From: a virus
Reading direction: 5' to 3' (one strand)
DNA length: 39,111 nucleotides
IMG/VR virus record: IMGVR_UViG_3300025652_000185
Coordinates: 1 to 39,111 of that record
Position 1 is the first letter of the stretch. Every line of letters starts with the position of its first letter. Under the pieces are notes generated by a model. That model saw only the letters and a program-made list of their open reading frames with translations, was not told the DNA's origin and searched no databases. This document shows, one piece after another, positions 12,203 through 32,063 of this stretch. A program made the position numbers and the translations under genes.

Positions 12203-12664
12203 ATGCAAACTTTTTTACCTTATCCAAACTTTAAAGAAAGCTTAGACGTATTAGATAACAAACGTTTAGGTAAGCAGAGAAGCGAAACGTATCACATACT
12301 TAACATACTAATGCAACGTACAGAAAAGAAAGGTTACGCTAATCATCCTATCGTTCATATGTGGAAAGGTTACGAACCTGCACTGCAACAATACTTCAAT
12401 GTGAATACAGAAGTCTGGTTAGAACGTGGCTTCAGACATACAATGGGCTACGAAATTATTACAGATGACGTACGTATGCCCGATTGGTTTGGTGACAAAG
12501 TATTTCACGCTACTCACAGGTCTAACCTATTACGTAAAGACAGTGGGTACTATTCAAAATTTAGATGGGAAGAAAGCGCTGATGCTCCCTACGTGTGGTT
12601 AGATACACAACGTGAGCAGTGGTTCTTTATTGATGGAGTAACAAAGAAACGTGTGTACATATAA
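12203..12664 (+). CDS. MSMEG_6728 / pyrimidine-dimer-glycosylase-like protein
   Basis: A 153-aa protein with a recognisable pattern: N-terminal MQTFLPYPNF, then LDNKRLGKQRSETYHIL, HPIVHMWKGYEPAL and a C-terminal HRSNLLRKDSGYYSKF with PYVWLD. Proteins with this signature occur in actinobacteria and phages and have been linked to the pyrimidine-dimer DNA glycosylase clan, although a direct activity is, to my knowledge, not shown. The conserved N-terminal Thr/Leu region and the Lys/Arg patches would suit DNA binding. It sits behind a structured leader and directly before the AAA+/VWA pair, so it may belong to the same operon. Confidence 0.65.
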   Translation: MQTFLPYPNFKESLDVLDNKRLGKQRSETYHILNILMQRTEKKGYANHPIVHMWKGYEPALQQYFNVNTEVWLERGFRHTMGYEIITDDVRMPDWFGDKVFHATHRSNLLRKDSGYYSKFRWEESADAPYVWLDTQREQWFFIDGVTKKRVYI

Positions 12665-12697: not shown

Positions 12698-14788
12698 ATG
12701 TCCGAAACAAAACAACCTAGCTTTCATAAGCGGTTAAATGATACAGGTTATTTTTGTACAGAGGAGTTCGCAGACGTAGTCGAGAACGCTCTACACAAAA
12801 AGCCTATGTCTATTACGATGCTTAGAGGAAAGGCAGGTACGGGAAAATCCTACTTACCGGAGAAGATTGCTGAAGTACTTGGATGTAACATCTACGTAAA
12901 GCAAGCCTTTAAAGATTATGAATGGGATGATTTCGTACAGAAGTATGTACCAGACGAAACTACAACGTCTGGATTTAGTGCAAGAGATTGCGAAGTACTA
13001 CTTGCTATAAAAGAATCTAAAGATAAACGTGTTGTCTTATTGCTTGACGAATGGGACAAGACACAACATTCCGCTGATGGAATGTTCTTAGAGTTCTTGC
13101 AGAGTGGACGTATTAGCATTTCTGGTACGGAGTACAAAGCAAACTTAGATAACCTTATTATATTCTTTACGGGTAATGATGACAGAGTTTTTTCTGAGCC
13201 ATTCATTAGACGTATGAAGTTTATAGAAGTTGAACATATGCCACCTTCTTTAATACTGCAGATACTTAGTAGTAAATACGCAGGTAATAAGGAAGCTGAG
13301 AATATGTTTAATGCCGTACTCAATTTGTACAACGCATCTATCCTAGGAGATATGGATAAGCCTGCTACGGTACAAGAACTTATGGACGTAATCAATGATT
13401 GGTTAAGATATAAAAGCAGGGGTAAGTCTCCCATTTGGGAAGACCTTGTCTATACGAACGTAACCAAAGGTAGACGTAACCATAAAGAACTACAGACTGC
13501 GCTTGAAAAGATAAAGAACGGTGAACTTAAAGATGACTCAGAGTTTAGTAAGTCATTAGACGTTGCGTTCTTTGATAAACAAGCTGAAGTAGAAGCTGAA
13601 ACTATATCTAATGGTTTTGGTTCTGCCCCACGTATGATGGAGATACTAGGTATTAATACTGAATTTGGTACAGATGAAAATAATGGTGAAGTTTACGCAG
13701 AGTACAAGCGTGATGAAGCAGTTTATACTAATGCTTACGAAGAGTCAATAGATAATGAAGAGGATATAAATCAACCTCATTTTATATCTTGGTATACTAT
13801 TCGTACATCTAGTATTGAACGTTCAAAAGCTTATGAGCTACGTGAAATCATAGAGGAAGAACAGAAGTTTCTAAGACTACGAAAGACAGAAGGTACATTA
13901 GTATTTCTTGAACGTAGTGTAAGTAAAGCAGATGTTGCAGACTTCCTTGACATTGAAGAAGGTACAGCTTATATACGTAAAGCTACTAACGATGAAATAA
14001 TATTCAGAGTTACAGGCGGACGTTCAAGGAATCATCAAACAAGTTTAGAGTTTAACGCAAGATGGACAAGGGAAAATGGGTGCGAGTTTATTGTACCTAC
14101 GAAAGCTTTGGATATTTTTCGTGAAGCAATACGCTTGGTTGGTTGGTACGTAGACGGCAAGGATAGGGTACGGTTAGATAATATCTGCAGTGAACTGTCT
14201 GGAAACTTACTTGATACTAGAAGATACATTAACGTACGAGGCTTAGGAGATTCTAAGAAGATACTAGACGTTACAGTAAGTGGTGAGATGCGTAAAAATG
14301 ATGAGTTACCTTATCACGCTTGGGTTTACAATTCAAGCGCAAAGGTTAAGGAAACTAAACGTACCACTACATATGACTTAGGTTGGGCAGTTGTACGTTC
14401 TTGGCACTTGAAAGATAGACCTAACTATAAGAATCACGTAGTGATTAAAAAAGCACCAGAAGCGGGCCGTAAAGATACGAGTCTTTTCATTCAATTCCTA
14501 ATGAGAAAACTAGGCACAAACACAATACCTTTGTTCGTAAATATGCGCAAAGATTTGTATTTACAAATGCCTACCGTAGCAGAAGGTGGTAAATGGAAGG
14601 TCGGAAAATCCACACGTGTTTTAAAAGATACATCTCAAAATTCGTTGAGTGTATATTGTGTAAATACGTTTGACAATACTACGTTTATTGCTATGCTTAA
14701 ACCGGATAAAGATAATATATCTGATTTAATATCTTGGCGTGAACATATGTTGTTTACACGTAAAAAGATGGATAAGGTTAACGTATGA
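12698..14788 (+). CDS. MoxR/CobS-like AAA+ ATPase with long C-terminal extension
   Basis: A 696-aa protein with strong Shine-Dalgarno AGGAGGG. The AAA+ core is residues about 20-230: Walker A GKAGTGKS (44-51), Walker B VVLLLDEWD (112-120; D117, E118), sensor 1 in IIFFTGND (N160) and candidate arginine fingers R171/R172. The arrangement FLEFLQSGRISISGTEY after Walker B is like CobS and MoxR ATPases, which remodel partners together with a VWA protein. Residues about 290-696 match no domain I recognise and may be a substrate or partner module. Its stop overlaps the VWA gene start (ATGA). Cobaltochelatase (CobS/CobT), MoxR/VWA chaperones and conflict-type systems are the closest functional models. 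Confidence 0.8.
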   Translation: MSETKQPSFHKRLNDTGYFCTEEFADVVENALHKKPMSITMLRGKAGTGKSYLPEKIAEVLGCNIYVKQAFKDYEWDDFVQKYVPDETTTSGFSARDCEVLLAIKESKDKRVVLLLDEWDKTQHSADGMFLEFLQSGRISISGTEYKANLDNLIIFFTGNDDRVFSEPFIRRMKFIEVEHMPPSLILQILSSKYAGNKEAENMFNAVLNLYNASILGDMDKPATVQELMDVINDWLRYKSRGKSPIWEDLVYTNVTKGRRNHKELQTALEKIKNGELKDDSEFSKSLDVAFFDKQAEVEAETISNGFGSAPRMMEILGINTEFGTDENNGEVYAEYKRDEAVYTNAYEESIDNEEDINQPHFISWYTIRTSSIERSKAYELREIIEEEQKFLRLRKTEGTLVFLERSVSKADVADFLDIEEGTAYIRKATNDEIIFRVTGGRSRNHQTSLEFNARWTRENGCEFIVPTKALDIFREAIRLVGWYVDGKDRVRLDNICSELSGNLLDTRRYINVRGLGDSKKILDVTVSGEMRKNDELPYHAWVYNSSAKVKETKRTTTYDLGWAVVRSWHLKDRPNYKNHVVIKKAPEAGRKDTSLFIQFLMRKLGTNTIPLFVNMRKDLYLQMPTVAEGGKWKVGKSTRVLKDTSQNSLSVYCVNTFDNTTFIAMLKPDKDNISDLISWREHMLFTRKKMDKVNV

Positions 14789-15885
14789 GCAATCTTAAAC
14801 CGTCTTGGTCTCAGTGGTCTATAGGAGAAGAACCAGAAATTGAACGTTCTGAGCAGTTAAACCCTCCTGTAGAGAATAAAAAACAAGCTCAGAATGATGA
14901 GGTGGCGGACGTAAAGTCCGCTACCAATTCATATGAAAAGTTAGAAGATGTTGATGCAAGCCATTTACGTAAGGAGATGTATGTTTACGAAGAAAGTCTT
15001 ATAGAAGAAGACGTAAACAATATAATAAAAAACTTACAACGTAAGGCGCCTGCTGTACAGGAATCTGATGAGTTTAAACTTGGTATGAAAAAGTTTAATG
15101 TAGGTAGTAGTAAGAATATTAACGTACCTATTAGCGCTAAAAAGACAGAGTCTTTACAAGCAATAAGTAAACAAAGACTAAGAAATAATAGGTCATACGC
15201 TAAAGAAAATCTTTCAAATCGTAGTTGGAAAGTCAATACGCAAAGAGTTGAAAGTCAGTTTTCTTTTAACAGTTTAAACAATCGTAAACTATCTTCTAAC
15301 CTAGCGCTTTTGTTTAGTAAGATAGCAGAGGAACGTACAGGTGATAAGATTGCAGGTAGAAAGAAATGGGATGTTAACAAGGTTATGTTTAGACGCATCT
15401 CTAAGAAACTTATTACGCAATGTAAGTACTCACGTGATAAAGAAAAAATAATTATATTACTTGATAGTAGTCCTTCGTGCAGTAAGATGGCAAGTTTATA
15501 CAGTGAGATATCTACAGAAGCTTGCAGGTACGAACACGTAGAATTATATGATGCTCCTAATGGACATATACACAGTGTTTATTCTACATCAGAACGTAAA
15601 TACGTACCACTTACAGATGAAGAACTTGATAACGTATATCATTGGTTAGGCTTTGAAGATAGGACTATAATATATTTTGGCGATGAAGATGGCACGTCAA
15701 GTCTAGAAAGTTCTTACGGACAGAATGAAATACATTGGTTCTTTCAAGGTAACAGAAGTTATTATACACGTAGAGAAACAGAAGCTACGATGAAAAGACT
15801 ACATAAACAATGGGATGGTAAAGTAAAACTTTATAAGTGTAACACCGTAAACGAAATAATAAAAGCAGTAAAGGAGATAAAATGA
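14785..15885 (+). CDS. CobT-like von Willebrand factor A (VWA) protein
   Basis: A 366-aa partner of the upstream ATPase, starting inside its stop codon. Residues 1-160 are charged and probably disordered. Residues about 170-220 (ending RKKWDVNKVMFRRISKKL) look like the linker preceding VWA domains in CobT-type proteins. Residues about 220-360 form the VWA fold: KIIILLDSSPS holds a MIDAS motif D227-x-S229-x-S231, a second strand HVELYDAP, and YFGDEDGTSS with acids at 300 and 302. In CobT the motif is normally DxSGS; here Pro replaces Gly. Such VWA proteins bind metal and connect the ATPase to its substrate. No CobN-like chelatase is encoded here, so the target is unknown. Confidence 0.75.
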   Translation: MSNLKPSWSQWSIGEEPEIERSEQLNPPVENKKQAQNDEVADVKSATNSYEKLEDVDASHLRKEMYVYEESLIEEDVNNIIKNLQRKAPAVQESDEFKLGMKKFNVGSSKNINVPISAKKTESLQAISKQRLRNNRSYAKENLSNRSWKVNTQRVESQFSFNSLNNRKLSSNLALLFSKIAEERTGDKIAGRKKWDVNKVMFRRISKKLITQCKYSRDKEKIIILLDSSPSCSKMASLYSEISTEACRYEHVELYDAPNGHIHSVYSTSERKYVPLTDEELDNVYHWLGFEDRTIIYFGDEDGTSSLESSYGQNEIHWFFQGNRSYYTRRETEATMKRLHKQWDGKVKLYKCNTVNEIIKAVKEIK

Positions 15886-16669: not shown

Positions 16670-17404
16670 ATGAGTAACAAACAAAACATCTTTGACGACT
16701 TCGAAGTCATAGATTTATCAGAGAGTATGGGAGACGTAGTGTGTTGCGACTTTTGTAATCTAGGGGATGACACTATGGGCGGTGTAATGATTGGAAGTAA
16801 TGCCGTATGTGGTGACTGTTGTAAGAAGAATGATTATTACTTTGATAAGGCTAATGATGTAGACTATTACTTTGATAGGAATAAAACGTTCAAAGAAAAC
16901 GTATTACAATATAGAAAGAAAAATAAAAGGCATAAGTTAAATTCTAATATGCAATTTAAAATCAGCGAAGACCATCCATTTAAAGACTCTACAAAAGACA
17001 TAGTAAAAATGCAAGTAGATATAGATAGTATACTACGTAAAAGTATAGAGATGGAAGATTCTAGTCCTCCCGATTACTTAGATGCAGTAGAAGACTATTT
17101 AGTACGTAGACCTAACGTAGTAAAGGTTCTTATGGGTAACTACACAGACCTAAAAGGTGGCAACGTTGAAAGGCTTGCAAGAAAAATAGCTTTTATGCAT
17201 CTTAAACTTATGCAAGAACAAATCGCAGAAGGTAATCACAAGGTATCAAATCGTAATGATAAAGACCACTCCGTAAAGATTGAAGCCCCAAGAGAAACAG
17301 GATATAAGGTATACGAAACTGCAAGTGAACAGGAAAAAGCACTTAAGAAAGTACGTGAGAGTGAAGAGATGAGAGATATTTTTCCAGACATAGCGAGGGC
17401 TTGA
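16670..17404 (+). CDS. Unknown protein with N-terminal Cys-rich motif (244 aa)
   Basis: Has a good Shine-Dalgarno (AAGGAGA). The N-terminal 60 residues hold C25-C26-x2-C29 and C47-x2-C50-C51, a plausible zinc ribbon. The middle has KISEDHPFKDSTKDIVKMQV and a helical block (DYLVRRPNVVKVLMGNY). The C-terminal 60 residues are strongly charged and probably disordered. Zinc-binding plus a charged tail suggests nucleic-acid association. No enzyme signature is visible. It and the next gene sit just ahead of the regulatory repeats. Confidence 0.6.
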   Translation: MSNKQNIFDDFEVIDLSESMGDVVCCDFCNLGDDTMGGVMIGSNAVCGDCCKKNDYYFDKANDVDYYFDRNKTFKENVLQYRKKNKRHKLNSNMQFKISEDHPFKDSTKDIVKMQVDIDSILRKSIEMEDSSPPDYLDAVEDYLVRRPNVVKVLMGNYTDLKGGNVERLARKIAFMHLKLMQEQIAEGNHKVSNRNDKDHSVKIEAPRETGYKVYETASEQEKALKKVRESEEMRDIFPDIARA

Positions 17405-24546: not shown

Positions 24547-24916
24547 CAAACTAACACTCAGTGATTATGAGTACGAAAGATTTGATGCCTATAATAATTA
24601 CTGTGTTGTTGAAGTAAAGCACAGACATACGTGGTACAATAAACAACTAATAGAATTTGATAAATTTTCTTACAATAGTTGGTTTGCTCACATTAATAAT
24701 AAGAAATTTCTTTACGTAGTATCTTATAGAAATGAGATAATAATTTTTAACATTACTGATTTAAATAAAAAGAAATATAATTTTAATTGGGAGTATAAAG
24801 AGATGCCAAAGCAAACTGAATTTGATGATAATAAAAAAATTGTAAAGTTTGTAGGTTACTTAGATTTAGATATGCTAAGGTCTTCAAACTCTGTATATCA
24901 ATTTGAAGTACTTTAA
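24491..24916 (+). CDS. PD-(D/E)xK nuclease-like protein
   Basis: A 141-aa protein with good Shine-Dalgarno (GAGAGGGG). It shows RFDAYNNYCVVEVKHRHTWY: D32, then E41-x-K43, matching the D ... ExK signature of restriction-like nucleases, followed by LIEFDKFSYNSWF as expected for the family helix. The remaining strand-rich part (KFLYVVSYRNEIIIFNIT) completes the fold. It overlaps the preceding gene by 56 bases and ends four bases inside the convergent large gene. Its role may be DNA degradation or repair. Confidence 0.6.
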   Translation: MKQIEKNIIKRYNQQFPNSKLTLSDYEYERFDAYNNYCVVEVKHRHTWYNKQLIEFDKFSYNSWFAHINNKKFLYVVSYRNEIIIFNITDLNKKKYNFNWEYKEMPKQTEFDDNKKIVKFVGYLDLDMLRSSNSVYQFEVL

Positions 24917-27900
24917 AAGCTTTCAAAATTTAAATAGTTATTACGCATAATTGTATCTAGCATTCGCATCCTATCATCGTAAATATTTACTAGTTCTTCT
25001 ACGTTCTTAAGGTTTTCTGGAGATAAAGTTTTTTTATAATTCTTTGCTGTGCTTACTCCTCTTTCTATTTTATCCCAATCTTTAGGGTACGGTCTAAGCT
25101 TTTGACTCATACTAGATTTAATAGCGGTATGTGCCTCTCCCCTTATTGTTCTTTTGTAAACGTTTTTATTTTGAGACGCATACTTATTAGCTATCTTATG
25201 TTCTATGAACGCTCGTGTTTTTAAAAAATCTTTTTCAAAATATTTTTTATCTCCTGCTATTAAAGATTGTGATAATAACTTAAAGTATGCTTGCTTATCT
25301 GTAAATTCACCCTTCTTAATAGTAGCTTCTAAGCCCACTCGTTTTCTTTTGTTACCAAATTGTTGATAGTTATCTAGGAATTGACCTTGTAATCTTCTTT
25401 GGTCTTCAAATTTTTTATTAATATCTTTGTTGTAGTTCTTATAGCCATCCAATACTTGCTTAACTAACGTAACTTGTTTACTAGCGTACGCTAATGTGGT
25501 CTTACTTGCTACGTCTAAATCTTTTATTTCTGAAAGACTCTTTGTAAAATTATAAAACTCGGCTCCAAACTCTATAGGCACGGGCATATAAGAATCTATA
25601 ACTCCGCCATAACCATCAAAAACATTACTGAGTAATCCCAGTGCTTCACCCCTAACCGCATAATCAAATAATTGTGCTGGTAATTTCTTAAAATCTTTAC
25701 CAATCAAATCTTTGCCAAGAGCATTTTCATAATATAAATTATATAACGCCATCCCGGTTAGTGTGCTGCCAGCTGCATATTTAAAAAGCGGGAAAGGGTT
25801 GCCGTCATTTATAAACGGAACAACTGCTCTGTTGTACGTATTTTCTGTAACTCTATACGCAGTTCTATAAAATAGTGTAAGAGGCTTTACGTTATTCTTT
25901 GCCATCCACGTAGGTATGTAAGGTAATTGGGTTGCGCCCTGAGTCGCTGCCTGAGATTTAAAAAGGCCCCTCTTGTATATGTCATCAAATTTTTTATCAG
26001 ATTCTAAAGCTAAACTAAAAGCATTATCTCCAAAAGATTTTCGTTTTTTTAGTTCGCCTATCATATAGTCTATTTCAGAATCATCTATTTTTATTGTACC
26101 TTTTAATAATTCCCTAGCTTTTTTTACATCCTTAACTAGTGAACTGTTTTTATTTTTTATTAAAGTCTCAAAAGAATCTCTCATAACTACGTCAGATACT
26201 GCAACCGATGCTCTTCTGTTAAGTTTTTCAACGTGTCTAAATAGAAAAGCAGGATTTAAAGTTCCCCTAGTTAAGAATAAATCATCAACTGATTCAGAAG
26301 TAGCGCCCGTAACTGAGGTTAAATCACTGTAAGACTTATAGTTTTTAATAAGTTTAGAGTATGATTTTAATAATTTTATTGTACCAAATGACGTAAGGTT
26401 TTGCACTTGTCCTGTAAGAAAGTTTTTAATTGCGGCACTTGGCCCAGAAAGATACGAACTAGAAATAGCTGTAGTTAGACCACTACCAAAAGAAGAGAAA
26501 GCAGTTTGTTTTTCACCACCAAGTAGTAACTCTAAAGTTTCTTTTGTGTACGTACCTGCTCCTTCCATACCTTTTTTTGCTGTCTCAAATTCTATTGCTC
26601 CCATAAGTCTCTTTACAGTATTTCCATTAACGCCATCAATGTCAAAATTTCTAGCTAGCGCTATAGAGTTTGACATTTTATTACCATAAAAATTTATTAT
26701 CTTACCAAAATCTTTTTCATATATTTCAAATACGTCACCAATAATTCTTGTTTGATTGTCTGCGTCAACAATAGATTGCCCCTTTTTAAATGTGTTTACA
26801 TTGGGTAGCTCATCTAATTGTATAACCTTACCAGTATTTTTTTCTAATAACATATACGGAGGGATGTCTATTTTTCTAGTATCTAAAATACCAAGAGGTT
26901 TATTAGGATTAGAAAACATACTGATTGAACCTCTAAATATTTCCCTCTCTTGCTTAGTAGCTTTTGGATTAGCCCTATCAAACGTTGCCATTAATTGTCG
27001 CTCTAACTTCATAGGGTTTTTAAGAAATAATTTTTGCGCATCCTTAGATAGGACATAAGGCACGTAATTTTCTACGTAAGCAGATTTTTCTAGTGTTTTA
27101 TTTACATCTACGCTAACTATCTTACCATCCTTACCTTTTACTTTACTTCCTTTGCGTTGAATGATTTTTAATATGTCTCCATTTTCAAAAGAATCATCAG
27201 AGACTTTTATTAAATTTCCTTTCTTATCATAAACAGATAAGAAATCTACAAACTTACCTTTACTATTTTGTATTTGTCCTCCGTACCTTGAGTACTCTAC
27301 AACCATTTCATCTAAGAAATTTCTAGCTTGTTTGTTTAAATCTTTTGAGTCTTTCATTGGATTAGGATTAGATAATAACGCAAGTTTTTTATCTCCAAGC
27401 GCACCCGTTACGTTAGATAGTTGACCCCTACTTAATTTAAAAGAACTTTTTAAATCATTTACAAACTTAGAAAAAGAACCACGTATTAAATTTTTTGTTA
27501 CAGTATAGTCTGTTACCTTCTTAGATAACTCCTGACCTGCTACTCCAAATTGCATAAAGTTAGACTCAGGACTAAATGCATATTTTCTAATAGCGTTAAA
27601 ATTATTTTTGTTTTTAAAAAAACTATCAGAAATCTGGAAAGGAAGTACGTCATCTAGCTTTGCTTTTTTAATATTTTTTAATTTGTACTCAGGCTTTAAC
27701 ATATTTTTATACGTAGTCAATTCTTCTATTGTCATCCTGTCTGACTTGCCGTAAGACCTAGTAAACCCAGAGCGTTTTAAACTAAAAGATTCTTTACTTC
27801 CTATTCCTAATTCATTCTCTAGTTTAGATATAGACTTGACTAAACTCTGATGTTCTTTATATGATTGAGGACTAATATTTTTTAAATCTTTACCTTGCTT

Positions 27901-29421
27901 TAAATTAAAAGGATTCTTTTTAGTATAAGACCTGAGTATTTTTTTGTTATCAGGTATTACACTTTTAAAGTCTTTATAAAATATGTTTAACACTTCTTGT
28001 TTTGTTTTGCCTGATATATTTTTAACACCTGACAAATCATTTTTATCTTTTAATATTGTATATGTAAGTCGCTGACCGCCATCTTTTGTTTCTTTTATGG
28101 TTTGCAACTGGACTAGTTGATTTGTTTTATCACCACCTGACTTACCTATAAATCTATTACGTAAATACTCTGGTCTTTTTGTAGCTAATAATAACTTTAC
28201 TTCATCTACATTTAAAGATTCTATTAAGTTTTTACTTACAGACTTATCACTAATCGCAGTAGAGATACCGTCTTTTACTAATTGTTTTACACGTAGGTTA
28301 TCTGCTCCTACGCCAATGTAATGAGCTGCCGTAAATATAGCTCCGTCAATTAAGTTATCTGTTGTTGTAGTCTCTGAACCTTTTTTTCCACTGCTGCCAA
28401 CACCAGCAAGAGAAGCGCCAACCCCAGAGCTAAAGACTATTCCGGCTTCTAAACCTAAACCTCGCTTACTATTTTCTGCTAATCCTAATATCTTACCTGC
28501 TCCTAAGACTCTGGGCAATCCACCTAGTGTCATAAAGAAAGCATCGCCTATTGGTTTAGTTATTCTTTCAGATATATTTATATCACCTTCTTCATTACGT
28601 AATGGTATTGTTTTCTGAAACATAATACCTGACGCAACTAAATTATTAACACCTAAATCAATAGCATTAGCTGCACGTATAGACATTTCATTACCAGAAC
28701 TTTTAACTCCTTTGACACGTGATAAAAACTTACCCATACTGTATTCACCAGAGCCTACTTTCGTAATAAATTTTCTGTAATTTTCAGACCTACCAAGTAA
28801 CGTATTATTTTTTATAACACCAGCAGCATCTAACGCTGCGTCTATTTTAGCTTCTTGACTTGCTACTCTTCCTAAATATCTTGCTTTACCACTACCTGCT
28901 GAAGCAGCTTTTGCTATTTTACGTAACCTTGCTACCTCTGTATACCCTTTATTTGCAGTAACTAATGCCTTGGTTGCCTTTGCTCCTGTGCCTGCAATTT
29001 TTAAACCACCTAGTACGCCACCTGTTGCAAATAAACCAGAGCCAAAACCAATTATTTGACCTGCTACCCCTGCAACTTTTTCTGATAGATTATCTGGAGC
29101 TTGATAGTCTCCGGTAAGGTCTATAGGTACTGGAGATAACCCTTCAAGAAAGTTAGAAACAAAACGTTTAGTAAGACCGGGGTCTTGCTTTAAACTTTCT
29201 TGTTCGTTACGTATAAAGTTATCATCTTCTTCTAATTGTTCTTGCGTAATGTTACCTAATAAACTTATAGGTTCATCTATTAAATTTACGTCTTTAAATA
29301 AATCAAAAGATTCTTCTTCTTTCTCTTCTTCTATTAAATTTACGCCTTCAAATAAATTAATATTATTAACAGGCTCATCTATTAAAGTTACGCCTTCAAA
29401 TAGATTGTTTCCATTTGCCAT
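24913..29421 (-). CDS. Giant internal virion / ejection protein (1502 aa)
   Basis: A 1502-aa protein transcribed leftwards and ending head-on against the plus-strand block (four-base overlap). The first 55 residues hold three LFxxVxLIxEP-type repeats. Residues about 115-210 are Gly/Ala-rich and hydrophobic. Later parts include a helical Ile/Leu/Lys-rich domain and, near residue 1000, a hydrophobic SSYLSGPSAAIKNFLTG segment. The size, low complexity and neighbours suggest an internal core protein ejected with DNA, like large podovirus internal proteins, or a large polyvalent protein. No lytic transglycosylase motif is clearly visible. The function is inferred. Confidence 0.6.
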   Translation of the reverse strand: MANGNNLFEGVTLIDEPVNNINLFEGVNLIEEEKEEESFDLFKDVNLIDEPISLLGNITQEQLEEDDNFIRNEQESLKQDPGLTKRFVSNFLEGLSPVPIDLTGDYQAPDNLSEKVAGVAGQIIGFGSGLFATGGVLGGLKIAGTGAKATKALVTANKGYTEVARLRKIAKAASAGSGKARYLGRVASQEAKIDAALDAAGVIKNNTLLGRSENYRKFITKVGSGEYSMGKFLSRVKGVKSSGNEMSIRAANAIDLGVNNLVASGIMFQKTIPLRNEEGDINISERITKPIGDAFFMTLGGLPRVLGAGKILGLAENSKRGLGLEAGIVFSSGVGASLAGVGSSGKKGSETTTTDNLIDGAIFTAAHYIGVGADNLRVKQLVKDGISTAISDKSVSKNLIESLNVDEVKLLLATKRPEYLRNRFIGKSGGDKTNQLVQLQTIKETKDGGQRLTYTILKDKNDLSGVKNISGKTKQEVLNIFYKDFKSVIPDNKKILRSYTKKNPFNLKQGKDLKNISPQSYKEHQSLVKSISKLENELGIGSKESFSLKRSGFTRSYGKSDRMTIEELTTYKNMLKPEYKLKNIKKAKLDDVLPFQISDSFFKNKNNFNAIRKYAFSPESNFMQFGVAGQELSKKVTDYTVTKNLIRGSFSKFVNDLKSSFKLSRGQLSNVTGALGDKKLALLSNPNPMKDSKDLNKQARNFLDEMVVEYSRYGGQIQNSKGKFVDFLSVYDKKGNLIKVSDDSFENGDILKIIQRKGSKVKGKDGKIVSVDVNKTLEKSAYVENYVPYVLSKDAQKLFLKNPMKLERQLMATFDRANPKATKQEREIFRGSISMFSNPNKPLGILDTRKIDIPPYMLLEKNTGKVIQLDELPNVNTFKKGQSIVDADNQTRIIGDVFEIYEKDFGKIINFYGNKMSNSIALARNFDIDGVNGNTVKRLMGAIEFETAKKGMEGAGTYTKETLELLLGGEKQTAFSSFGSGLTTAISSSYLSGPSAAIKNFLTGQVQNLTSFGTIKLLKSYSKLIKNYKSYSDLTSVTGATSESVDDLFLTRGTLNPAFLFRHVEKLNRRASVAVSDVVMRDSFETLIKNKNSSLVKDVKKARELLKGTIKIDDSEIDYMIGELKKRKSFGDNAFSLALESDKKFDDIYKRGLFKSQAATQGATQLPYIPTWMAKNNVKPLTLFYRTAYRVTENTYNRAVVPFINDGNPFPLFKYAAGSTLTGMALYNLYYENALGKDLIGKDFKKLPAQLFDYAVRGEALGLLSNVFDGYGGVIDSYMPVPIEFGAEFYNFTKSLSEIKDLDVASKTTLAYASKQVTLVKQVLDGYKNYNKDINKKFEDQRRLQGQFLDNYQQFGNKRKRVGLEATIKKGEFTDKQAYFKLLSQSLIAGDKKYFEKDFLKTRAFIEHKIANKYASQNKNVYKRTIRGEAHTAIKSSMSQKLRPYPKDWDKIERGVSTAKNYKKTLSPENLKNVEELVNIYDDRMRMLDTIMRNNYLNFESF
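29272..29407 (-). repeat. Three short direct repeats encoding LFxxVxLI motifs
   Basis: Three partly diverged copies of about 33 bp (near 29272, 29328 and 29375) encode LFEGVTLIDEP, LFEGVNLIEEE and LFKDVNLIDEP. They share bases like ctattaaa-ttacg-ctt-aaata. They lie at the start of the giant internal protein, and spacing is irregular, so the motif was probably duplicated and selected as a short linear element. Confidence 0.7.
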
Positions 29422-29424
29422 AAG

Positions 29425-31311
29425 CTATCTATACGTTCCACTTATTATTCTTTGTATTAAATTTTTTAATTCTTGAGGTGATTGATTGTTAGTTAATTTT
29501 TTTGAAGAGCTTAGAGATTTATAAAAATCATTAGTATATTTTTCATTTGAAAAATCACCGGTATCAAGGTTAATATATCCTTCAAATTTAGATTTTATTT
29601 CTTCTTGTATCTTTAGAATTTTATTTCTAAACGGAGTAAGTTGTTTTTCTATGTAACCCTCTGGTAACCTTTCTTTATATTTATCTAATCTTATCTCTTC
29701 TTTTTGTAATAAAGCTATGGCTTTTGGTAAAGCATTTAAAGGTTTAACTATTTGCATACTTGCAGTTTTAGGACTATTTGCTACGTATTTATTTGGGTTA
29801 TCTTCAATCTGCTTTACACCGCTAGGGTCTTTAAACTCAGAAATATCCTCTCCAAAGTTTAAATTTTCTAATGTTAAATCATCTGCTATACCTTCTGATT
29901 GAGGAGGTATATTTGAAACTGGTCTTGCTACGTCAGGTAAGGGCGGACTAGTTATAACAGGCTCTGTCTTAATAGAATCTACATTAGCAGGGTCTACTGC
30001 CCCCTCTGTAACAACAGGCTTTCCGACAACAGATGGAAACCCTTGCGTAGTTTTAATCGTATCATTAAATATACCAATCTTACTTAAACTATCTAAAAAT
30101 TCAGGGCTTGTTAGAGATAGGTCTTTATTTTCAACGCTATAAGTATTTACAATACTTTTTATTTCTTGAAGTTGAGGATGATTTTGTAAGAAAGATTGTT
30201 GTTCTGATTTATTTAATCCCTTAAAACTATTTATGTTACCAGTTATGACTTTGTCTTTATCACTAAGATTATTAGTAGTATTATTAGAGCTAATAGGGAT
30301 AGTAGCAAAGCCAAGTTTTTTATAAAAACTATTTATATTTTGTTTTGAAACTCTTTTTTCTTCTTCTAATCTTTCTATATCTTTTTGTAATTTAATTACT
30401 ATATCTCCCTTATATGTGTCATTAGATATTTGTCCTAATTTTCTATTTATACTATCATTAACGTTACGTATATCACTTCGAAAACCACTTAATATAGAAG
30501 TTTGTTCTTTAGTAATCCCTTTTTTCTCTAATGTTGATGCAAGAAATTTTGAACCGTCAATAGGGCTTAAAGCTCTAAAAGTTTTTCTATCTTTATCTGA
30601 ATCAAATAAAACATCTATATGTGAAACTTCATCTCCTTTTTCATTTTCAAATTTTCCATATGCAAGGTCATAATATTCTGCGTTACCTCTATACTTTGCA
30701 GTCATATCCATAAGCATTTTATCTTTTGATACTCCAAACATTCCCTTACCAGTAGGATTTATTGCCATATACTCATCTAATAATTTCTTACCTTCTTTTT
30801 CTTTACCTTCAAAAGTATATTTTTTAGTCATTATTTCATTAATATTTTCACCTTGAAATATTTCTTCAAACTTAGACAGTCTAATAGCACCTACTTCTGA
30901 AACATCTAACCTAGAAGTTAATATACGTCGTAATTTTGGGTCAGACATTTCACTTATTGTAGCCCTAGCTTCTAATCTATCAGCTTCTGATTTTAAATCA
31001 ATATCTTTTAACCCACCCATAAGTACGTTATCAGTAGCTCTGTCTTCACTTCTTTGATATCTATCTTGTTCAATATCAAGTTGTTCTCTACGTAAATCAG
31101 ATTGTATTTGTTGTTGCTGTACTTGTGAATCTAGTTGCTTACCTTGTAAATACGTTTGACTTGCACGTTCAAATGCATTATCTAACGTATTAGCTATTAC
31201 TTCGGCAGTACTAACTTGACGTGGCTGTATAGATATGTCAGAAAATTCTAATAAGTTACGTGGGCTACGTAATTGTTTTGTTATTTTACTTGGGTCAAAT
31301 CCGTTTGCCAT
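29425..31311 (-). CDS. Internal virion protein with long coiled coil (628 aa)
   Basis: The start at 31311 (MANGFDPSKITKQLRSP) has AGGAGG just upstream, rather than an upstream in-frame ATG (31356) inside the previous gene. The first 100 residues are Gln/Arg-rich helix (VQQQQIQSDLRREQLDIEQD). Further helices follow, then a Pro/Val/Ser-rich stretch around 430-480, then a Lys-rich helical C-terminus. This fits an internal core or ejection protein together with its neighbours. There is no enzyme motif. It lies three bases after the upstream stop and four bases before the giant gene. Confidence 0.6.
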   Translation of the reverse strand: MANGFDPSKITKQLRSPRNLLEFSDISIQPRQVSTAEVIANTLDNAFERASQTYLQGKQLDSQVQQQQIQSDLRREQLDIEQDRYQRSEDRATDNVLMGGLKDIDLKSEADRLEARATISEMSDPKLRRILTSRLDVSEVGAIRLSKFEEIFQGENINEIMTKKYTFEGKEKEGKKLLDEYMAINPTGKGMFGVSKDKMLMDMTAKYRGNAEYYDLAYGKFENEKGDEVSHIDVLFDSDKDRKTFRALSPIDGSKFLASTLEKKGITKEQTSILSGFRSDIRNVNDSINRKLGQISNDTYKGDIVIKLQKDIERLEEEKRVSKQNINSFYKKLGFATIPISSNNTTNNLSDKDKVITGNINSFKGLNKSEQQSFLQNHPQLQEIKSIVNTYSVENKDLSLTSPEFLDSLSKIGIFNDTIKTTQGFPSVVGKPVVTEGAVDPANVDSIKTEPVITSPPLPDVARPVSNIPPQSEGIADDLTLENLNFGEDISEFKDPSGVKQIEDNPNKYVANSPKTASMQIVKPLNALPKAIALLQKEEIRLDKYKERLPEGYIEKQLTPFRNKILKIQEEIKSKFEGYINLDTGDFSNEKYTNDFYKSLSSSKKLTNNQSPQELKNLIQRIISGTYR

Positions 31312-31313
31312 AA

Positions 31314-32063
31314 TTATCCTCCTGTCTCTGCGTTCATTCCAGCCCCTGTTCTCCAACCTCCGAATGTACCATCTTCCCTATAAAAAGCATAAAATGTATG
31401 CTGTCCATATACGGGACTGCTGTAACTAAACGTTGCTCCTTGAGAAGGCTCTGGTGGATTCCATTGAGCTGAATTTCTAATTTGATTAAACTGTTCCCCT
31501 GTTAGTCTTTGACTTCCAGAAGAATCTACATTTGAAGTATCGCTAGTTCCTACTGTTTGTAATATATTTTCTGGTGTCTCTTGATTAAAACTAGTTAGTA
31601 AGTCAGATATTGAATCTTGATAACCTAATCTTTCTTGTCTAACTCCTGACGTAAGACTTAGTAATGCGCTAGAAAAAGCAGAACCATATTGATTTTGTAA
31701 GCCACTACGTGTATCATCAACAGTTGATTGTATACTGCCTGAACCTGAAAAACCTGACTGAGCAGATTGTTCTCTAGCTTCGCCCATTATCCCACCTAGT
31801 TGACCAACAGCTCCTTGATAACCTTCTTGTACTCCAGAGCGAAATTGAGTACGTAACATTTCTTCATTGTATGCATCATACTCTGGTATCATACTTCCAT
31901 AAGTTAATCCAGTGTCAGGGTCTTCTGTGTTTAAAAATTCTGACGTAGGTGCAATGCCTAAATCTCCATAAGCTTGTTGAGTATCATACGTAGGTGTTGT
32001 AGTAGTAAACTCTTCATAGTATTCATAGGGGTTTACTGTATTATGTCCGGGTACGTGTGCCAT
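31314..32063 (-). CDS. Virion structural protein (249 aa), internal or tail
   Basis: Gly/Ser/Gln-rich protein starting MAHVPGHNTVNPYEYYEEF. A Gly/Ala/Ser/Gln-rich middle (about 80-130) and a beta-type C-terminus (SSPVYGQHTFYAFYREDGTFG) are seen. It is in the middle of a run of four to five unlabelled virion genes on the minus strand. It is short compared with the others, so it may be an internal protein or a tail-tip component. No enzyme motif is visible. Confidence 0.5.
   Translation of the reverse strand: MAHVPGHNTVNPYEYYEEFTTTTPTYDTQQAYGDLGIAPTSEFLNTEDPDTGLTYGSMIPEYDAYNEEMLRTQFRSGVQEGYQGAVGQLGGIMGEAREQSAQSGFSGSGSIQSTVDDTRSGLQNQYGSAFSSALLSLTSGVRQERLGYQDSISDLLTSFNQETPENILQTVGTSDTSNVDSSGSQRLTGEQFNQIRNSAQWNPPEPSQGATFSYSSPVYGQHTFYAFYREDGTFGGWRTGAGMNAETGG

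Follow-up and report, generated by a model that had tools for sequence, protein, structure and literature searches.

A MoxR-type AAA+ ATPase gene coupled to a gene for a VWA-like adaptor in an uncultured virus and its relatives

Two overlapping genes of an uncultured marine phage encode a MoxR-like, helix-2-insert AAA+ ATPase resembling NorQ and CbbQ and, as its adaptor, a protein whose C-terminal domain is VWA-like. Sequence and predicted model together show both assignments, the second with modest fold scores. We consider it fairly probable that the two proteins constitute a NorQD-like MoxR-VWA remodeller, driven by ATP and acting within the early replication and recombination module. The sequence analysed, hereafter the window, was the complete 39,111-base IMG/VR virus record IMGVR_UViG_3300025652_000185. 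A sequence-only reading of this DNA had proposed a MoxR-type AAA+ ATPase coupled to a VWA protein, and this part stood, as NorQ and CbbQ were the closest structures (Z 19) and the VWA gene lay 3' of the AAA gene in 28 of the 29 contigs with enough room. The other part, the CobS/CobT label taken as membership and the idea of a hijacked chelatase, was not supported. The coordinates of both open reading frames were rechecked and are exact (Table 1).

Table 1. Position of the gene pair and its features in the window (aa, residues of the encoded protein)
Feature	Position	Strand	Basis
MoxR/NorQ-type AAA+ ATPase, 696 aa	12698..14788	+	Pfam AAA_5 4.5e-8, predicted model versus NorQ/CbbQ
Walker A GKAGTGKS, aa 44-51	12827..12850	+	G44, G47, G49, K50 invariant, 20 homologues
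Walker B VVLLLDEWDK, aa 112-121	13031..13060	+	D117, E118, D120, K121 invariant, 20 homologues
Sensor 1 TGN, aa 158-160	13169..13177	+	T158, N160 invariant, 20 homologues
Candidate arginine fingers R171/R172	13208..13213	+	invariant in 20 homologues; AAA+-typical position
C-terminal extension, aa 334-696	13697..14785	+	model confidence variable; absent from 274-287-aa homologues
ATGA stop-start overlap, 4 bp	14785..14788	+	sequence
VWA-type adaptor, 366 aa	14785..15885	+	predicted model, best structural rows MDN1-MIDAS and NorD
Predicted mostly disordered N-terminal region	14800..15240	+	mostly low pLDDT; conserved W-containing motif
Pre-VWA segment aa 153-220, contains GRKKWDVNKVMFRR, candidate pore finger	15241..15444	+	conservation, NorD alignment
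MIDAS-like DSSPS, aa 227-231	15463..15477	+	D227, S229, S231 invariant, 16 homologues
DxD after beta-4, D300/D302	15682..15690	+	invariant in 16 homologues

The ATPase and its adaptor

The AAA protein comprises an N-terminal AAA module (aa ~12-274) and a C-terminal extension of ~420 aa, and its Pfam AAA_5 match lies above the cut-off. Walker A, DE(W)DK, LxFLQxG, TxN and RR were invariant or nearly so in 20 AAA homologues, which bears out the Walker A, Walker B, sensor 1 and candidate arginine fingers read earlier from the sequence; W119 in Walker B is a family signature. The predicted model (mean pLDDT 70.5, the AAA module mostly 75-92) contains a helix-2 insert hairpin at aa 81-97 (strands 81-85/93-97) and a pre-sensor-1 hairpin at aa 138-147 (strands 138-141/144-147). 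The closest solved structures were NorQ and CbbQ (Z 19.3-17.6), with Z 19.3 over 241 aa for NorQ 9qh4, 18.9 for CbbQ 6l1q and 18.9-17.8 for CbbQ overall, well ahead of Clp (ClpA), McrB and dynein at ~15. Against the PDB, the AAA profile best matched midasin (4.5e-27), an enzyme that unites an AAA ring and a VWA/MIDAS domain. The window-type phages share the C-terminal extension with their relatives in SAR324; since the 274-287-aa homologues do without it, the core machine is the AAA plus the VWA.

One patch of the AAA gene, window 13553-13717 (aa 286-340), was strongly diverged from the near-identical locus L001 (pN 0.135, pS 0.335), with flanks at 0.001-0.005 (pN) and 0.03-0.08 (pS). The confinement of the divergence to this patch suggests recombination. 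A match to MadB_ATPase (NF047784), shared by all 20 AAA homologues, was rejected; it gave 31.8 bits against a curated cut-off of 475, and 12 of 14 control genomes also matched below the cut-off, so it reflects generic AAA similarity.

For the adaptor, sequence searches of Pfam, PHROGs, NCBIfam and the PDB gave nothing useful. Its model contains a C-terminal alpha/beta domain (aa 221-366, mostly pLDDT 70-93), in which the predicted alternation of beta and alpha elements agrees with the VWA fold. The best VIA-align rows were human MDN1-MIDAS (Z 7.3) and NorD (7.0, 6.8 and 6.4). Structure comparison, on which the sequence-only reading had staked the VWA identity, thus returned a VWA-like protein with modest scores (Z ~7). 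All Z-scores were below 8, the top rows tied within 1 and unrelated Rossmann folds reached ~6, so that by itself the fold is no more than suggestive; in Foldseek alone, nothing matched the adaptor model below E 0.001.

The VWA assignment was therefore based on the fold combined with D227/S229/S231, N259 and D300/D302 and with the near-constant adjacency to a MoxR-type ATPase. These six residues (DxSxS, N259 and the DxD 300/302) were invariant in 16 homologues at 13-66% identity, so the MIDAS DxSxS recognized in the sequence-only reading is retained down to 13% identity. No conserved threonine was found in the 16 homologues after beta-3, where the canonical MIDAS threonine lies. The C-termini of the window-type VWAs end alike in a basic-hydrophobic-basic pattern. 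When the window-type VWA alignment was compared as a profile with that of the L018 type, the match was statistically weak, though colinear over the GDxDG region.

Upstream of the VWA domain, W11 in the N-terminal motif was nearly invariant in 16 homologues, and in relatives the N-terminal region has grown into long D/E/S-rich linkers. Three loci (L036 8028-9422, L040 6824-8593 and L059 4520-6595) carry very long D/E/S/G-rich low-complexity linkers (100-400 aa) that separate the N-terminus from the VWA domain, and their length differs between close copies. The GRKKWDVNKVMFRR-type linker reported ahead of the MIDAS was located at aa 191-204. The pre-VWA segment that holds it has six invariant residues in eight homologues (E182, G191, D196, R203, C213 and K219) and lines up with NorD residues from ~384 onwards. 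In NorD, the finger (403-448) inserts into the pore of NorQ, and remodelling depends on it (PMC13036017); by its position, the GRKKWDVNKVMFRR linker may be the equivalent of this finger.

Range of the family and gene context

Direct searches recovered close copies only, with 97/99% and 76/66% identity. Much more distant loci came from a scan based on the Walker-B part of an alignment. The family, at first three near-copies, thereby grew to about 30 loci. The carriers are phages, the Thermovibrio ammonificans plasmid pTHEAM01, SAR324/Lambdaproteobacteria, another bacterial MAG and Bacilli MAGs; the viral carriers include several contigs that look unrelated. In tblastn of both window proteins against INPHARED phages, no hit passed 1e-5; relaxing the threshold to E 10 added only weak AAA matches, mostly Clp ATPases.

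A contig scored as positive if the AAA gene was followed by a VWA-like ORF containing DxSxS and, further on, DxD. The set comprised 20 viral contigs with at least 2.7 kb downstream (two of them near-identical), the plasmid and eight bacterial contigs. All 20 viral contigs, the plasmid and seven of the eight bacterial contigs were positive; the sole exception was a Bacteroidia contig (L052). The homologues are thus adjacent in other phages, the point on which the sequence-only reading had made the coupling depend. The ATGA overlap was likewise present as described, and most homologous pairs overlap by a few bases too. The dN/dS between relatives was 0.07-0.33 for both genes, which are under purifying selection. 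Together, this selection and the adjacency indicate that the pair is more than a chance association.

No published or curated description of the family was found in the libraries searched and in literature of partial coverage. A BFVD fold search matched nothing below E 0.08. MoxR-VWA pairs of phages are already known from the literature; the window family itself appears to be new. The pTHEAM01 pair belongs to the same family, with DEIDK in Walker B, an acidic linker, DVSGS, TDWDG and the ATGA overlap; its AAA differs in having no C-terminal extension.

In the window, the pair lies in a rightward module with genes for a PD-(D/E)XK/Cas4-like nuclease, a DnaB-like helicase and a RusA-like resolvase, while the terminase, portal and capsid genes occupy the minus strand. 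The pair is 5' of a PD-(D/E)XK-type nuclease gene in the window group, L015, L017 and L031, and L015 has a Rad52-like protein 3' of the pair as well (weak Pfam match). This gene order beside core replication genes is kept within the phage group.

Viral MoxR-VWA pairs have been proposed to act in assembly, namely ATV p618/p892 and those of jumbo phages (PMC4124505, PMC7824862), and these direct precedents would make the window pair a virion (tail) assembly chaperone. We consider this improbable, since the pair resides in the early module on the strand opposite to the portal, capsid and terminase genes, and since the SAR324 and Bacilli chromosomal copies adjoin housekeeping genes, with no virion to build. 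The pair could also be a conflict module serving superinfection exclusion, counter-defence or host takeover. Known conflict systems use MoxR-VWA proteins (PMC7159879), and the bacterial spread is patchy (6/41 and 5/60 genomes in two orders), with a plasmid copy in addition. However, PADLOC gave no meaningful match, being generic for the AAA and empty for the VWA, and the conserved placement beside replication genes also speaks against a conflict role, which we judge quite improbable. The individual PADLOC matches (PDC-M37B, mad8 and IetA) were rejected as generic AAA similarity.

Other genes around the pair were also recorded. A pyrimidine dimer DNA glycosylase (window 12203-12664, plus strand; PF03013, 5.4e-21) lies directly 5' of the pair; it is kept next to the pair in L002 and L008 and is upstream in L015 too. 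A 244-aa protein with an N-terminal CxxC, zinc-ribbon-like (16670-17404, plus strand), is conserved 3' of the pair in L002, L008, L012, L017 and L031. The structural-gene strand carries ORFs of 1502 aa (24913-29421, minus strand) and 643 aa (29425-31356, minus strand), both without a PHROG or Pfam match. Promoter-like and terminator-like matches were no more frequent than chance.

Relation to CobS/CobT

It is routine to annotate AAA-VWA pairs of viruses as CobS/CobT vitamin-B12 genes, and there is good documentation of CobST pairs in phages (PMC8651126, PMC11288001). The window pair would accordingly be read as a viral cobaltochelatase CobS/CobT pair that borrows the host CobN to raise cobalamin production, a hijack proposed in print for true phage cobST (PMC8651126). 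The comparison set comprised Roseobacter phage CRP-810, a Zobellviridae phage, Gordonia phage GMA6, haloviruses and an ICE. The phage and haloviral CobS/CobT share with the window pair the AAA and VWA gene architecture, the occurrence in tailed viruses, the early module, a WD-type linker ahead of the MIDAS and, in several relatives, an acidic low-complexity linker. In hhalign, the linker and MIDAS region of the adaptor aligned weakly with phage CobT (prob 37%). The CRP-810 cobST, like the window pair, is near an annotated pyrimidine dimer glycosylase gene. This neighbour was set aside as evidence of kinship because the CRP-810 gene was absent among the tblastn matches to the glycosylase of the window.

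The remaining evidence stands against this reading. In the AAA tree, the window-type AAAs formed a clade of their own (13 rows, 100/99) that included none of the references, and a topology uniting them with CobS was rejected (p-AU 0.0004-0.001), the references being phage and ICE CobS only. The CobS and CobT models (TIGR01650/TIGR01651) left the window proteins unmatched, and one of the 16 VWA homologues reached E 0.1 with the CobT model. The adaptor lacks the N-terminal HEAGH zincin domain and the GGxxT MIDAS threonine of phage CobT. Searches for CobN in 14 virus records (the window and 13 others) and in seven family-bearing bacterial genomes, fragments and drafts among them, were negative, and no ribonucleotide reductase was found in the virus records, which are fragmentary.

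Given the tree, the unmatched models, the missing zincin domain and MIDAS threonine, and the CobN searches, CobS/CobT membership of the window pair is not supported, and a chelatase role is highly improbable. The sequence-only reading was borne out in that no CobN-like subunit was found in the window; its CobS label was contradicted by the phylogeny, and its suggestion of a hijacked host chelatase found no counterpart in the genomes searched. Since phages and bacteria in which no chelatase subunit was found also have this architecture, annotation as CobS/CobT by architecture can mislead.

The CobS-like AAA ATPase of an SXT-like ICE region (L066 3815-5702), beside the ssb and bet recombination genes, shows a similar association but belongs to a different family from the window AAA; its partner gene encodes an unrelated hypothetical protein with no DxSxS.

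Proposed mechanism and likeness to other machines

NorQ/NorD (CbbQ/CbbO) is the nearest known system to the preferred NorQD-like remodeller. NorQ/CbbQ supplies the best structural match of the AAA module, the VWA partner gene adjoins, and the candidate finger segment lies just ahead of the VWA domain. The pairs differ in that identity is ~13-15%, the window AAA has the extra C-terminal region, and the NorQ insert motif GRXLL/IXXXXT (motif from PMC13036017) is absent from window AAA aa 77-106, DDFVQKYVPDETTTSGFSARDCEVLLAIKE. Moreover, the window has neither a cNOR nor a rubisco substrate, and its MIDAS threonine is not conserved.

Homology to NorQD suggests that the ATPase forms a hexamer with the VWA domain seated in the C-terminal opening of the ring; the conserved pre-VWA segment (aa ~153-220) would enter the pore as a finger, and the conserved extreme C-terminus of the adaptor would grip the ring. 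ATP turnover may then twist (rotate) or pull the adaptor, remodelling a target held by the MIDAS-like face and the flexible N-terminal arm. That the pair remodels a target, as had been supposed from the sequence, is probably correct. From its context, this target would be a phage or host protein of the early replication/recombination programme, not one of cobalt chelation or virion assembly; such a target is favoured by the gene order, upstream of the PD-(D/E)XK nuclease, the Rad52-like protein and the DnaB helicase and on the strand opposite to the structural genes.

Midasin is a single chain of ~5000 residues with six AAA modules. Midasin/Rea1 (MDN1) provided the best PDB match of the AAA profile and the top structural match of the VWA model, and it also combines an AAA ring, an acidic linker and a MIDAS domain; its PDB chains are 4700-4910 residues long, versus two short proteins in the window. 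A bolder proposal, which we consider rather unlikely, is that the pair is a machine dedicated to phage replication/recombination and independent of any chelatase, a minimal two-gene midasin analogue for stripping or rearranging protein complexes on the DNA of phage or host. It would have a variant MIDAS (DxSxS, N and DxD), its ATPase would carry a novel extension for substrate recognition, and it would be shared with plasmids and bacterial chromosomes. The family offers small, separable parts for testing how AAA rings drive VWA adaptors, a mechanism resolved only recently for NorQD, and one such pair is on the plasmid of a cultured thermophile.

The ATV p618/p892 and N4/jumbo-phage pairs are also virus-borne MoxR ATPases with a VWA partner, ATV being likened by description. 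N4 gp25 differs as a fusion of a DUF2201 metallopeptidase and a VWA; the window proteins had no Pfam match to DUF2201_N/DUF2201, and no HExxH occurs in window ORFs of at least 40 aa. In Bacilli MAGs, a third gene comes after the AAA and VWA genes, having no Pfam match but an invariant, zincin-like HExRH motif (L053 9846-10862, L055 4795-5805, L057 9817-10809 and L059 6595-7617), which echoes the zincin domain fused to the VWA in N4 gp25 and phage CobT.
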